Source of the DNA: Actinomycetota bacterium
GTDB lineage: Bacteria; Actinomycetota; Thermoleophilia; Gaiellales; Gaiellaceae
DNA length: 43,302 bases
Direction: 5' to 3'
Assembly (NCBI GenBank): GCA_004366385.1
Contig: SIRU01000027.1
Coordinates: 1 to 43,302 of the forward strand
A model generated the notes under the pieces. It was not told the origin of the DNA. It made no database searches and was given only the letters and a program-made list of their open reading frames with translations. A program made the translations under genes and the position numbers. Below are positions 26,760-31,709 of this stretch, in pieces. How positions within the stretch are numbered: position 1 is the stretch's first letter; every line of letters begins with the position of its first letter.

Positions 26760-28199
26760 ATGCGCACTCGGATCTTCGCAGAGGAGACACGGAAGTGGTT
26801 CACGCTGGCCGCCGTCTCCTTCGGCCTCTTCATGATCATGCTCGACAACACGGTGGTGAACGTCGCGCTGCCGGCGATCCAGCAGGACCTCGGCGCCGAG
26901 CTCTCGGAGCTCCAGTGGATCGTCACGGGCTACGCGCTCACGTTCGCTGCGCTGATGCTGATCGGGGGCAAGGTGGCGGACGCATATGGCCGGCGCCTGA
27001 TCTTCGTCGTCGGGATCGCGATCTTCACGACCGCGTCGCTCTGGTGCGGCCTCGCCGACTCGAGCGACGAGCTGATCGCGGCGCGCGTGCTCCAGGGCGT
27101 GGGCGCTGCGCTCATGAACCCGGCGACGCTCTCCATCATCGCGGCGACCTTCCCGCCGCACCAGCGGGGCGCCGCGATCGGGATCTGGGCGGGCGTGTCC
27201 GCGCTCGCCCTCGCGATCGGGCCGCTCGTCGGCGGCCTGCTGACCGAGCACGCGACCTGGAACTGGATCTTCTTCGTCAACGTCCCGGTCGGGATCCTGG
27301 GCATCGCGGCGAGCTTCGTCTTCATCGACGAGTCGCGCGACCAGACGCACGAGCGCCTCGACCTCCCCGGGCTGGCGACGTCGGCGGTGGGGCTCTTCGC
27401 GCTGACGTACGCGCTCATCGAGGCGAACACGTACGGCTGGGGCTCGACGCGGATCCTCGGGGCCTTCGCGCTCGCCGGGATCGCGCTCGTCGCGTTCTAC
27501 CTCCTCGAGCGTCATCAGCGCGCGCCGATGCTCCCGCTCGAGCTGTTCCGCAACTCGACCTACACGGGGGCCAACCTCGTCGTGCTCCTCGTCGCGCTCG
27601 CGATGTTCGGGGTCTTCTTCTTCATGTCCCTGTACATGCAGACGATCCTGGGCTACTCGGCAGTGCAGACCGGCGCGGCGTTCCTGCCGATGACGATCCT
27701 GATCATCCTGCTCGCGCCGATCGCCGGGAGGACGAGCGACCGCGTCGGGTCGCGGGGGCTCCTGACCGTCGGGATGGTGCTGGTCGCGCTGCAACTGGTC
27801 TGGCTCTCGCGGCTCGGGCTGCGCTCGGACTTCTGGGATCTCCTGCCGGCGTTCCTCGTGGGCGGCATCGGGATGGCCCTCACGATGACGCCGAGCGCCG
27901 CTGCTGCCACGCGCAGCGTCTCCGTGGACAAGGCCGGCGTCGGAGCGGCGGTGCTGAACGCCTCGCGCCAGGTCGGCGGCTCGCTCGGGATCGCCGTGAT
28001 GGGCGCGATCATGGCTCACGAGGCCGCGGGCAGGCGGACGCCCGAGGCGTTCATCGACGGGTTCCAGAGCGCGTTGCTGGTCGCTGCGGCCATCGCCGTC
28101 GCGGGTGCCGTCATCGCGTTCATGCTCGTCCGGCCGCACGAGGGCGCGGGACGGCGCGCCCCGGATGCGGGCCGCGAGGTCACGGAGCCCGCCGGATGA
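26760..28199 (+). CDS. DHA2-family MFS drug efflux transporter (EmrB/QacA type, 14 TM)
   Basis: The 479-residue membrane protein opens with LDNTVVNVALPAIQQDL (motif D1 of DHA2). It has GGKVADAYGRRLIF (motif A) and RVLQGVGAALMNPATLSI (motif B), then GPLVGGLLTE (motif C), and 14 predicted hydrophobic segments. It should export hydrophobic compounds using the proton gradient. ATG at 26760 has GGGAGG just upstream, so this gene uses a Shine-Dalgarno. Its stop overlaps the TetR gene start (ATGA), a standard repressor/pump pair. Confidence 0.95.
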   Translation: MRTRIFAEETRKWFTLAAVSFGLFMIMLDNTVVNVALPAIQQDLGAELSELQWIVTGYALTFAALMLIGGKVADAYGRRLIFVVGIAIFTTASLWCGLADSSDELIAARVLQGVGAALMNPATLSIIAATFPPHQRGAAIGIWAGVSALALAIGPLVGGLLTEHATWNWIFFVNVPVGILGIAASFVFIDESRDQTHERLDLPGLATSAVGLFALTYALIEANTYGWGSTRILGAFALAGIALVAFYLLERHQRAPMLPLELFRNSTYTGANLVVLLVALAMFGVFFFMSLYMQTILGYSAVQTGAAFLPMTILIILLAPIAGRTSDRVGSRGLLTVGMVLVALQLVWLSRLGLRSDFWDLLPAFLVGGIGMALTMTPSAAAATRSVSVDKAGVGAAVLNASRQVGGSLGIAVMGAIMAHEAAGRRTPEAFIDGFQSALLVAAAIAVAGAVIAFMLVRPHEGAGRRAPDAGREVTEPAG

Positions 28200-28792
28200 C
28201 CGCCCCCGCGACCCGTCTCCCGGCGGCCGAGCGCAGGCGCGCGATCGTCGACGCTGCGCTCCGCGTCTTCTCCGAGGGGAGCTATGCCGGCGCGACGACC
28301 GCGCACATCGCCAGGGAGGCCGGGGTGTCGGAGCCGATCCTGTACCGCCACTTCGAGTCGAAGCGCGAGCTCTACGCCGCGTGCCTCGACGAGGCCTGGG
28401 AGCGGATCCGCTCGAAGATCGACGAGCGGATCGAGGAGCTCGGGCCGGCCGAGGGCTGGCGCGACCTCGGCCCGACGACGATGCGCGAGATGAAGGTGCT
28501 CGTGCCCAGCCTCTGGATGCAGGCGATCACGGAGGCGGGACAGGATCCCGACATCCGGCGCCACGTCCGCGCACACATGCGCGAGGTGCACGACTACTTC
28601 GCGGACGTCGTCCGCCGCGTGCAGGCCGACGGCGGCATCCGTCCCGATCGCGACCCGGACGTCGAGGCGTGGATCTTCGTCGCGGGGACGCTGCTCGTCT
28701 CCGTCGCCGACCGCCTCGGCGGCCTCCTCGGGCCCGACGACTTCGAGGCGATCAAGGCCGAGCGCCACCGCTGGCTGACCGGCGACGCCTGA
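28196..28792 (+). CDS. TetR-family transcriptional regulator
   Basis: The 198-residue protein has an N-terminal HTH with AERRRAIVDAALRVFSEGSY, TTAHIAREAGVSEPILYRHF and ESKRELYAACLDEAW, a textbook TetR domain. A helical ligand-binding domain follows. It probably represses the upstream pump gene, with which it overlaps by 4 nt, and may also act on the divergent acyl-CoA synthetase gene. The ligand is unknown. Confidence 0.95.
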   Translation: MTAPATRLPAAERRRAIVDAALRVFSEGSYAGATTAHIAREAGVSEPILYRHFESKRELYAACLDEAWERIRSKIDERIEELGPAEGWRDLGPTTMREMKVLVPSLWMQAITEAGQDPDIRRHVRAHMREVHDYFADVVRRVQADGGIRPDRDPDVEAWIFVAGTLLVSVADRLGGLLGPDDFEAIKAERHRWLTGDA

Positions 28793-28985: not shown

Positions 28986-29161
28986 TGAAAACGCCCCCGG
29001 CTGCGGCTCCGGGGGCGCTTTCCTGGTTCGAGGCGACCCCTTACCGGGGCGACGAGCCTGGAGCTCGTGACTCTGCGGCCCAGCCACGGCTTCCTGGGGC
29101 CCGCCGGCGGATCCGGCGGTGGTGCCCGCGCATCCGACCTGGCGTGAGTCGGTGCGGTGTG
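28986..29161 (-). ncRNA. Putative structured small RNA (~175 nt)
   Basis: A near-consensus promoter (29196-29168, reverse strand) and a strong intrinsic terminator with TTTT (29017-28988) bracket about 175 nt with no convincing reading frame. In 5'-3' order the RNA can form CCGCCGG-N5-CCGGCGG, GGCCCCAG/CTGGGCC, ACGAGC-TCCAG-GCTCGT, CCCC-GGTAA-GGGG and the terminator hairpin. It is divergent from the XRE/TPR regulator gene, and one AAGTCAAGT box covers its -35. I could not match it to a known family. A terminated leader (riboswitch or attenuator) is the alternative, but no gene follows on this strand: the next gene downstream is TetR in the opposite direction. Confidence 0.62.
28992..29017 (-). 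terminator. Intrinsic terminator of the small RNA
   Basis: CGCCCCCGG/CCGGGGGCG is a perfect 9-bp GC stem with an 8-nt loop. On the reverse strand it is followed by TTTTCATT. On the top strand it is followed only by CTTTCC, so it is strongest for reverse-strand transcripts but may also stop read-through from the pump/TetR operon. Confidence 0.75.
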
Positions 29162-29167
29162 GGCCTG

Positions 29168-29196
29168 ACTATAGGGGCCATGTCCGGAAAAGTCAA
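29168..29196 (-). promoter_or_regulatory. Near-consensus housekeeping promoter of the small RNA
   Basis: On the reverse strand TTGACT (29196-29191), a 17-bp spacer and TATAGT (29173-29168) form the best vegetative promoter in the window. The predicted start is near 29161. Confidence 0.7.
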
Positions 29197-29236
29197 GTAG
29201 CTAAGTCAAGTGATTTCCGCTAGGGTTACTTGACTT
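29190..29236. promoter_or_regulatory. Three AAGTCAAGT boxes (candidate XRE operator)
   Basis: AAGTCAAGT lies at 29190-29198 and 29203-29211 in direct orientation, 13 bp apart. Its reverse complement ACTTGACTT lies at 29228-29236. The first box contains the -35 of the small RNA promoter. The region is AT-richer than its surroundings. The adjacent XRE/TPR regulator is the likely binder; this is inferred from position and symmetry. Confidence 0.6.
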
Positions 29237-29303: not shown

Positions 29304-30650
29304 ATGGGCATGCACGAGACCGCCACCTCCCCCACGCCCGCCGCATCGGCACGCTCGCGCCTCGGCGACCGCCTGCGCGCGCTCAGGGTCGCGAAGGGCC
29401 TGACGCAGACCCAGCTCGCGGGCGAGCGGTTCTCGAAGGAGTACGTCAGCCAGATCGAGCGCGGGAAGACGCGCCCGACCGACGCGACCATCGCGTGGCT
29501 CGCGGAGCAGCTCGGCGTCGACTCGGGCTATCTCGCGTCCGGCGTCTCGACCGAGGAGCGCACGAAGGCCGAGGCGTTGCTCGCCCGTGCGGAGGCGCTC
29601 TCGGAGGCGCACCGTCACGAGGAGGCGATCGAGGTCTTCCGCGAGGCGCGCCCGCTCGTCGACGGGACCGGCGCTCCGTCCCTGGAGCTCCGTGCCCTGA
29701 CGGGGGAGGCGTGGTCGCTCGGCCAGCACGGTGACGTGCGGACGTCGCTGGAGCTCCTCCAGCGCGCTCGCGAGATCGCCGAGCGGCCGGAGATGTCCGA
29801 CCTCGACCGCGCGGACGTGCTGTTCCGCCTCGGCGTCTGCCGCTGGCAGCTGTCGAGCATCTCGACCGCGATCGCGCTCTTCGACGAGGCGCTCAAGCTC
29901 GCGGAGGGCTCGGGGCTGCCGTGCGACCTCCTCCGCGCCGACATCCTCGGCTGGCGCTCTCGCTGCCACCGCCGGCAGCGCGACTACGTCGCCGCCCGCG
30001 AGGACGTCGAGCGCGCGCTCGAGCTCGCCGAGGGCATGGGCGACCGGCGCGCGATCGCCAACACGTACTTCCAGGCTTCCCTCATCTCGCAGCGGCAGGG
30101 CCACTACGTCCTCTCGCGGAACTACGCGCAGCGGGCGAAGGAGCTGTACCAGGAGCTGAACGACGAACGGAACGTCGGGCGGCTCCTGCTCATGTTCGGA
30201 GGCCTCACGCTCCTCCTGGGTGACGACGAGCGTGCGGTCGAGCACCTCAAGGCGTCGTACGCGCGGGCGTTGGACTCGGACTCCCCGGCGGATGCGGCCC
30301 AGGCGCTCGAAGGGATCGCCCGGGTGCATCTGAACCGGGGCGAGTATGACAAGGCGGACGAGCTCGCGCGCGCGTCGCTCGAGCTCATCGAAGGTCGGGA
30401 GGACTACCTCTACGAAGTCAGCGCATCGCAGCTCGTACTGGGACGAGCGCATCTCGAGCGCGGACGGCTGGACGAGGCGGAGGACTGCTTCCGGGCAGCG
30501 GACGCGGCGGCGGAGCAGCTGTCGTCGCTCAGCTACCGGACGGAGGCGTGGGTTGCGTTGGGTGATCTCGCGGCTCGTCGAGGAGACGACCGCGAGGCGT
30601 CGCGTCTCTACCGGAACGCCGCCGAGGCGCTCCAGGAAATCCGCTTCTAG
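29304..30650 (+). CDS. XRE-family HTH regulator with TPR domain (RRNPP-like architecture)
   Basis: The 448-residue protein has an N-terminal XRE helix-turn-helix (residues 20-75: LGDRLRALRVAKGLTQTQLA, then SKEYVSQIERGKTRPTD). About 360 residues of tandem tetratricopeptide-like helical hairpins follow (for example EAIEVFREARPLV, TAIALFDEALKLAE, ARAHLERGRLDEAEDCFRAA). There is no membrane segment. HTH plus TPR is the layout of RRNPP receptors (PlcR, Rgg, NprR), which bind short peptides in the TPR groove. A 31-codon gene for a hydrophobic peptide follows after 13 bp. AAGTCAAGT boxes upstream suggest autoregulation. A non-peptide, general TPR regulator is the conservative alternative. Confidence 0.9.
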   Translation: MGMHETATSPTPAASARSRLGDRLRALRVAKGLTQTQLAGERFSKEYVSQIERGKTRPTDATIAWLAEQLGVDSGYLASGVSTEERTKAEALLARAEALSEAHRHEEAIEVFREARPLVDGTGAPSLELRALTGEAWSLGQHGDVRTSLELLQRAREIAERPEMSDLDRADVLFRLGVCRWQLSSISTAIALFDEALKLAEGSGLPCDLLRADILGWRSRCHRRQRDYVAAREDVERALELAEGMGDRRAIANTYFQASLISQRQGHYVLSRNYAQRAKELYQELNDERNVGRLLLMFGGLTLLLGDDERAVEHLKASYARALDSDSPADAAQALEGIARVHLNRGEYDKADELARASLELIEGREDYLYEVSASQLVLGRAHLERGRLDEAEDCFRAADAAAEQLSSLSYRTEAWVALGDLAARRGDDREASRLYRNAAEALQEIRF

Positions 30651-30663
30651 AGAGGAGGTCGCC

Positions 30664-30759
30664 GTGAAGCCGAGACTGCTGCTCCTGGTCGTCAATCTGG
30701 CAGTGCTGGCCGCGTGGCTCGGGCGCTTCGGCCTGGACACCTGGCCCGAGGGCCACTAG
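30664..30759 (+). CDS. Small hydrophobic peptide (31 aa), candidate signal propeptide
   Basis: GTG at 30664 is preceded by AGGAGG with a 5-nt spacer, the strongest Shine-Dalgarno in the window, 13 nt after the regulator stop. The 31-residue product begins with a basic MKPR and continues LLLLVVNLAVLAAWL, one hydrophobic helix. It ends in GRFGLDTWPEGH, a short polar/aromatic tail. This is the shape of an exported propeptide or a single-span membrane miniprotein. Its place directly behind an HTH/TPR regulator resembles receptor/peptide pairs. It has no recognised homologue. The coding call rests on the ribosome binding site and composition. Confidence 0.68.
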   Translation: MKPRLLLLVVNLAVLAAWLGRFGLDTWPEGH

Positions 30760-30785: not shown

Positions 30786-31709
30786 ATGCGCCCTGCTGCG
30801 GTTGTGACCGTGCTCACGTGTCTCTTCCTCGCCGCCTGCGGCGGCTCGGCGGGAGACGCGACGGTCGGAGAGCCCGGAGGGGATCGAACGCTCGAGGAGA
30901 TCTGGCGGTCTCCCGGCGACGACGTCGCGATCGTCGCCGGGACGGCCACCCACGAGCCCGGTGACGTTCGGGTGTCGTTCCTCGTGACGACCGAGCAAGG
31001 CGAGGTGGTCACCCTTCCGACGGCCCGCGTATGGGTCGCCCGGGGGCTGGACGAGGTCCCGTTCCTCGAGGGCGAGGCGAAGCTCGAGCGCATCGGCGTC
31101 GCGGGCGGCGCCGAGGCCGATGCGACCCACATCTACGTCGCGCGGCTCCGCCTGCCCCAGCCGGGGACGTACTGGCTGCTGGCGGAGCCGGTTGGCGGAG
31201 CGGTCGCGGTCCAGGCGCTCGGGAACGTCGTCGTGGCGAAGAGCCCCGTGCCGAACGTGGGCGAGGCCGCGCCCGCGTCGGAGACGCCCACGATGGCCTC
31301 GACCGGCGGGAGCCTCCGGAAGCTCACGACGGGCACGCCCCCCGACGACACGCTCTACCGGCACTCGGTCGCCGGCTCGCTGCGCGCCGGGGCCCCGTTC
31401 GTCGTCACGTTCGCGACGCCGAAGTACTGCACCAGCCGGACCTGCGGGCCCGTGGTCGAGGTCGTCCAGGAGGTCGCCAAGCGCTTCGAGGACTCCGGCG
31501 TGCGGTTCATCCACGTCGAGGTGTACGAGGACAACGACCCGGCGAAGGGGTTCAACCGCTTCATGCGCGAGTGGAAGCTCGAGACGGAGCCGTGGGCGTT
31601 CCTCGTCGGTGCCGACGGGAGGATCGTCGACCGCTGGGAGGGCACGGTGTCGACGCTCGAGCTCGAAGCGGCGCTCGAGAGCCTGCTCGCGTCGTCCGGA
31701 GGGGGGTAG
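30786..31709 (+). CDS. Lipoprotein with Ig-like and thioredoxin-like domains
   Basis: The 307-residue protein has a lipoprotein signal peptide (lipobox LAAC, Cys18). A beta-rich domain spans about 45-150 (DVRVSFLVTTEQGEVVTLPT, LPQPGTYWLLAE). A Pro/Ser/Thr linker and a thioredoxin-like domain (185-305) complete it. Cys215 and Cys220 (KYCTSRTCGPVV) form a CxxxxC rather than the CxxC of thioredoxin, as in some Sco/TlpA-like proteins. It is anchored outside the membrane and could handle thiols or copper. The heme A synthase gene 2.8 kb away hints at cytochrome oxidase assembly, but this is speculative. Confidence 0.87.
   Translation: MRPAAVVTVLTCLFLAACGGSAGDATVGEPGGDRTLEEIWRSPGDDVAIVAGTATHEPGDVRVSFLVTTEQGEVVTLPTARVWVARGLDEVPFLEGEAKLERIGVAGGAEADATHIYVARLRLPQPGTYWLLAEPVGGAVAVQALGNVVVAKSPVPNVGEAAPASETPTMASTGGSLRKLTTGTPPDDTLYRHSVAGSLRAGAPFVVTFATPKYCTSRTCGPVVEVVQEVAKRFEDSGVRFIHVEVYEDNDPAKGFNRFMREWKLETEPWAFLVGADGRIVDRWEGTVSTLELEAALESLLASSGGG

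Follow-up and report, generated by a model that had tools for sequence, protein, structure and literature searches.

We propose that two neighbouring genes of an actinobacterial genome, one encoding a helix-turn-helix/TPR receptor and the other a small propeptide, form an RRNPP-type peptide signalling system of the Gaiellaceae, with the promoter of a small RNA as its switched output, and we put the probability of this reading at about 0.72. The evidence is comparative: alignment of many genomes brings out the gene pair, its conservation and the selection acting on it, a C-terminal peptide core that in some species is repeated in tandem, an operator overlapping a promoter, a covarying RNA, and the linkage of this RNA to the receptor. 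An earlier note on this DNA had suggested an RRNPP-like receptor and peptide pair. The conserved pair, the tandem tails, the TPR-only paralogues and the structural alignment to Rap and NprR support that suggestion, and the likely output, judged from sequence, is the divergent promoter together with a single-copy operator and a structured RNA, a part of the system beyond what the earlier note described.

The window, i.e. the whole stretch of 43,302 nucleotides that was analysed, comes from a genome of 2.73 Mb in 63 contigs belonging to the Gaiellaceae/Thermoleophilia, Actinomycetota. The receptor gene (29304-30650, plus strand, ATG start) encodes a 448 aa protein with an XRE helix-turn-helix at residues 19-77 (Pfam HTH_31/HTH_3) and TPR repeats from about residue 83 to 447/448, where matches to TPR families reached E values down to 2.8e-27; besides the reading frame and Pfam, the assignment draws on an AF2 model and its VIA-align match to Rap/NprR over residues 81-448. 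The propeptide gene (30664-30759, plus strand) has 31 codons and a stop, begins with GTG, and follows the receptor stop after 13 bp. It is preceded by the Shine-Dalgarno sequence AGGAGGT at 30653-30659 (plus strand), which is kept in relatives. This is exactly the layout described earlier, in which a 31-codon frame behind AGGAGG begins 13 bp after the gene of a 448-aa XRE-HTH/TPR protein. The gene was recognised by its conservation behind the receptor, purifying selection and core motif, and its product, MKPRLLLLVVNLAVLAAWLGRFGLDTWPEGH, has a basic start, then a hydrophobic segment and then the C-terminal core TWPEGH; the short tail, GRFGLDTWPEGH, matches the one quoted before. Codons 30742-30756 (plus strand) specify the terminal WPEGH, with which the mature signal is predicted to end, its exact ends being approximate; the prediction comes from the match to the family core and from the tandem cores found at loci L017, L018 and L043-L045. 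An MFS transporter (26760-28199, plus strand) and a TetR regulator (28196-28792, plus strand) lie upstream in an order shared by many relatives; the transporter might export the peptide, and no link between the two was seen. Directly downstream is a putative lipoprotein gene (30786-31709, plus strand), kept by much of the family, whose product gave a weak thioredoxin-like match under the Pfam cut-off.

Receptors were gathered at 36% identity or more from relatives, the class, the phylum and named genome contigs, and regions around further matches were added. Pairs were counted in the non-redundant set of 108 receptor loci, orthologous and paralogous and nearly all from Gaiellaceae/Thermoleophilia; the relatives belong to Gaiellaceae, Gaiella and other Thermoleophilia/Actinomycetota MAGs, and none was found beyond Thermoleophilia at E ≤ 1e-40 among 396 genomes of the phylum. 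A mini-ORF was accepted if it was hydrophobic, had 24-75 codons and a Shine-Dalgarno sequence (GGAGG, AGGAG or GGGGG), and started between -4 and +45 from the receptor stop. Such a frame stood directly behind the receptor at 98 of the 108 loci, 75 of which additionally had D/E-G within the last 14 residues. With other frames of 250 codons or more as controls, 7/977 passed the same filter, and all seven were the same peptides reached through frames overlapping a receptor, leaving about 0/970. In the same genomes, 18 further HTH-TPR genes with 24-34% identity had no mini-ORF behind them (0/18), and these distant paralogues were ruled out as further carriers of the pair. Thus, the mini-ORF is a feature of this receptor clade rather than of HTH-TPR genes at large. 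Ten loci (10/108) failed the filter. The peptide is clearly missing at the related loci L050, L061 and L100 and at the more distant L063-L065, and at L024 the frame is present and the Shine-Dalgarno window was missed. At L040 the propeptide frame has shrunk to MKARLILHRSWTDGH, with the hydrophobic segment gone and the tail intact, which may reflect decay, an assembly error or a non-exported form.

Throughout the family, the genes keep a stable order and spacing, with synteny and vertical inheritance. Among ten congeneric species, pairwise NG86 counts for the small frame gave pS = 0.545 and pN = 0.211 (pN/pS = 0.39), which indicates that the frame is under purifying selection and encodes a protein. 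Two checks proposed in the earlier note, a search of related genomes for HTH-TPR genes followed by a conserved small frame and a comparison of its synonymous and nonsynonymous change, came out in favour of the pair. The note had staked its reading on the frame being conserved where the regulator is kept; nearly all such loci keep it, under purifying selection and with a conserved C-terminal core.

In some genera, relatives of the receptor consist of TPRs only. The HTH-less paralogues at L067, L069, L106, L107 and L109 each have a propeptide of their own with a GFSSGG, GFSTGN or GFSTGA tail and, by analogy, form a Rap-like branch that mirrors the split between Rap and NprR in Firmicutes. L068 looks similar, with an ambiguous frame start. 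At L066 the TPR-only receptor frame runs directly into the propeptide frame (...LYGFSSGG), which may be a frameshift, an assembly error or a natural fusion.

A near-consensus promoter (29168-29196, minus strand) lies upstream of the receptor gene and points away from it, with the -35 element TTGACT (29191-29196), a 17-bp spacer and the -10 element TATAGT (29168-29173); it is kept in relatives. Its -35 element falls in the second half of a direct repeat with a 13-bp period, ACTTGAC-N6-ACTTGAC (29192-29211, minus strand), which is our candidate operator and is kept at many loci. A third ACTTGAC site, inverted and not always conserved, is present between the operator and the receptor gene (29228-29234, plus strand). 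The promoter with its TTGAC element was recognisable in about 80 loci, and both halves of the repeat in most. The exact repeat occurred once per genome in 10/10 receptor-bearing genomes checked (the window's own and nine others), always at this promoter and also where the genome carries two receptors; it was found in none of the four receptor-less genomes checked (0/4). A two-mismatch, operator-like site common to four related genomes was rejected, as it lies inside a reading frame. The DNA-reading region of the receptor, RFSKEYVSQIERGKTRPT, is nearly invariant and so is the operator, and the repeat is likely to be the receptor's DNA-binding site. Paralogous receptors with GFSDGR tails have the same DNA-reading region and no ACTTGAC repeat of their own. 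Loci L055-L059, from a sister family of the order and with GGRGFHEW-like tails, carry GTCAAG elements upstream, and inspection by eye suggests a divergent TTGACC-17-TATGGT-like promoter as well; the RNA covariance model described below gave no match there, and a different RNA may be involved.

The divergent promoter leads into a structured small RNA of about 170 nt (28988-29163, minus strand) with a T-run terminator at its end, delineated by the covariance model R1 and by compensatory changes. Two of its hairpins share a GCCGCAG loop, namely P3 (29067-29087, minus strand; loop GGGCCGCAG), whose stem covaries, and the terminator hairpin (28988-29018, minus strand; loop AGCCGCAG). Compensatory changes were seen in 8/13 pairs; 94.9% of the stem cells were paired, and both sides had changed in 49 cells as compared to 14.9 ± 3.8 after shuffling. 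The R1 model found exactly one copy per genome in 85/101 Gaiellaceae, located at the receptor in those compared. A search of the window against Rfam returned nothing at E ≤ 1, and the RNAs of ten relatives gave only one weak, sub-threshold match (RF02691); the RNA is previously undescribed and has no Rfam family.

It may be argued that the peptide pair works as we propose while the RNA and operator serve some unrelated housekeeping purpose and are neighbours by chance. The RNA does outlive the receptor in genome G182, where receptor and peptide are gone from an otherwise syntenic locus, and paralogue loci with GFSDGR tails or TPR-only receptors are without the RNA. However, in G182 the ACTTGAC repeat has decayed while the RNA is kept, and the near invariance of both RFSKEYVSQIERGKTRPT and the operator also speaks for a connection. 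Moreover, among the genomes scored for both RNA and receptor, 77 had both and 7 neither, as against one with the RNA only (G182) and 5 with the receptor only (Fisher p = 8e-7). We consider an unrelated RNA improbable and retain the small RNA promoter as the output of the peptide pair.

The mini-proteins (n = 101) range from 28 to 68 aa in length. Lysine or arginine was present within the first 12 residues in 101/101, and aspartate or glutamate within the first 20 in only one of them. All 101 have a signal-peptide-like composition, and in the longer ones a variable pro-region comes after AxA-type sites such as GLAQA-K. The core [GST][WFMLIY]x[DE]G was found in 73/101 tails, as compared to a mean of 1.7 and a maximum of 7 in shuffled tails, usually 1-4 residues from the C-terminus. 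Tails fall into dialects by clade, with SWPDGH/N in the window's genus and GMSDGG, GFWDGP, GFSDGR and GFSSGG/GFSTGN in others; GGRGFHEW and KGHGGGHMNW are more divergent, and in genomes with two receptors the two tails differ from each other. In one genus (L017 and L043-L045) the core is present in 3-5 tandem copies, such as SMFDGG-SAFDGG-SAFDGH, which sit behind a clear signal peptide and a spacer, e.g. MKKTRLIFLLCALTAAAWSLPGLAQA-K...SAFDGHSAFDGHSAFDGNSAFDG; the copy number varies, and synonymous differences are found among the copies. Another genus (L018) has four MH/QDGHG copies. A signal peptide with tail copies in tandem behind it is characteristic of precursors from which several near-identical signals are cut, and the tandem cores accordingly read as the mark of a multi-copy pheromone precursor.

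These features bear on whether the small protein leaves the cell. It might instead be a miniprotein that remains in the membrane as a tether or modulator of the HTH-TPR regulator on the inner side, in which case no signal would reach the outside. Many of the shortest forms (28-33 aa) consist of one hydrophobic segment and a short tail and could be single-pass membrane miniproteins of this kind, and the receptor is cytosolic. Yet a basic N-terminus with the tail outside fits export by the positive-inside rule, tandem tails behind signal peptides with AxA sites would make no sense for a tether, and the core is kept although anything from 3 to 44 residues may separate it from the hydrophobic segment. 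A membrane tether is therefore rather unlikely, and we favour an exported signal. That an XRE protein adjoins a small hydrophobic peptide also recalls toxin-antitoxin pairs, in which the peptide would be the toxin and the XRE regulator the antitoxin or repressor. The stable, syntenic and vertically inherited arrangement, the spread of lengths from 28 to 68 aa, the conserved polar core and its tandem copies, the absence of both genes from the otherwise syntenic locus of G182, and a 370-residue TPR domain atypical of such antitoxins make this very unlikely. That the mini-ORF is translated as a leader or attenuator of the lipoprotein/thioredoxin-like gene downstream is hardly credible, for although that gene is conserved at many loci, many others, paralogues included, keep the mini-ORF without it, and neither protein-level selection nor a C-terminal core would be expected of a leader.

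The AF2 model of the receptor (pLDDT 90, pTM 0.75) was aligned over residues 81-448 with RapJ-PhrC (4gyo; Z 28.7, 346 residues), and it also aligned with apo NprR (5dbk; Z 28.2, 352 residues) and NprR-NprX (4gpk; Z 25.6). Eukaryotic TPR proteins such as LGN aligned equally well (Z about 30), so the fold is consistent with RRNPP receptors but not diagnostic of them. A profile of 26 receptors matched ComR and PlcR with its HTH part and RapJ with its TPR part. A search of a viral fold library returned mainly general TPR proteins and no RRNPP-specific relative. At groove positions assigned by the usual TPR register, and not from coordinates, Q257, R220, R224 and R264 are strongly conserved, and about 80% of the analysed receptors have Asn at N296/N297. 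The peptide-contacting asparagines or arginines on which the earlier note made its case depend are thus represented in the family by conserved Asn/Gln/Arg, but the window's own species has L/M at N296/N297. Receptor columns covarying with the tail beyond overall identity were enriched at the groove (9 of the top 30, expected 4.9, p about 0.035; Mann-Whitney p = 0.04) in what is a weak test with a crude correction for ancestry; the best column was 374, in TPR7. A fused receptor-propeptide model, in which the stop codon was read through with a four-letter word, left the TPR domain unchanged. Its tail had low confidence (about 60 for the last four residues and about 39 for the preceding ten), and we set its placement aside as evidence, the slight rise at the last four residues being a hint only.

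Among known systems, NprR-NprX of the Bacillus cereus group is alike in having an HTH and TPR receptor of similar size, a peptide gene directly downstream, and an exported propeptide with a C-terminal signal, export being predicted here. It differs in that our host is an actinobacterium, identity is as low as 11%, the peptide core is [G/S]-Phi-x-D/E-G, and the candidate operator lies at a divergent small RNA instead of at neighbouring protein genes. PlcR-PapR and ComR-ComS likewise combine an XRE-TPR receptor, matched by our profile over the HTH, with a small peptide that is exported (here by prediction); however, the TPR domain is larger here (a 448-aa protein as compared to about 285-325 aa), and peptide and operator are unrelated. 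Rap-Phr resembles the TPR-only paralogues with their own propeptides, and the window receptor aligns with 4gyo over the full TPR domain, but the peptides are different and there is no sign here of phosphatase or response-regulator-binding activity. The nearest NCBIfam match was to NsdA-type regulators of Streptomyces, which are also TPR-like, though under the curated cut-off (47.7 vs 75 bits). To our knowledge, NsdA-type regulators have no peptide partner. The published RRNPP signature comprises five criteria: a receptor of 250-500 aa, TPRs, a propeptide of 10-100 aa, direct neighbourhood, and Sec secretion by SignalP (PMC10075063). Four of these are seen here, as the receptor has 448 aa (orthologues similar) and TPRs, and the propeptide of 31 aa (28-68 in the family) is encoded next to it. 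We class the system as working like RRNPP; common descent with the Firmicutes receptors is no more than a possibility.

Export, cleavage, re-import, peptide binding, and regulation with its sign are steps that we infer as follows. Receptor and propeptide would be expressed from one operon, and the basic and hydrophobic N-terminus would direct the propeptide to the Sec pathway. Peptidases would then cut off the C-terminus as a short peptide with the [G/S]-Phi-x-D/E-G core at its end (in the window, WPEGH), and this peptide would build up outside and re-enter through an oligopeptide permease. The window's genome encodes six OppA-type binding proteins (SBP_bac_5) and a signal peptidase I; OppA-type proteins are common among bacteria. 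The imported peptide would bind the TPR groove of the receptor and alter its grip on ACTTGAC-N6-ACTTGAC, which overlaps the -35 of the divergent promoter, and the promoter switch would change the level of the single-copy structured small RNA, presumed to act post-transcriptionally. Because the divergent promoter is near consensus, we guess, leaning only slightly this way, that the peptide relieves repression. A more tentative idea, possible but on balance doubtful, is that the one operator and one small RNA of a genome are shared by several receptor-peptide channels that each use a peptide dialect of their own, as an independent actinobacterial peptide-to-sRNA quorum circuit.

The survey that defined the RRNPP signature covered only Firmicutes and their phages/plasmids (viruses), and it states that the signals of actinobacteria are as a rule small molecules made by enzymes (PMC10075063). 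In the papers searched, bioRxiv preprints aside, neither RRNPP nor AimR-like systems are reported for actinobacteria. Gaiellaceae are widespread and almost uncultured. From their genomes, it looks as if nearly every member of this large uncultured actinobacterial family carries a gene for a secreted mini-peptide directly after a likely receptor gene. Peptide quorum sensing of the RRNPP type, so far described for Firmicutes and their phages/plasmids, would thus extend to another phylum, with a conserved peptide language of readable dialects, a defined operator and a likely small RNA output that offer short peptides for direct testing.
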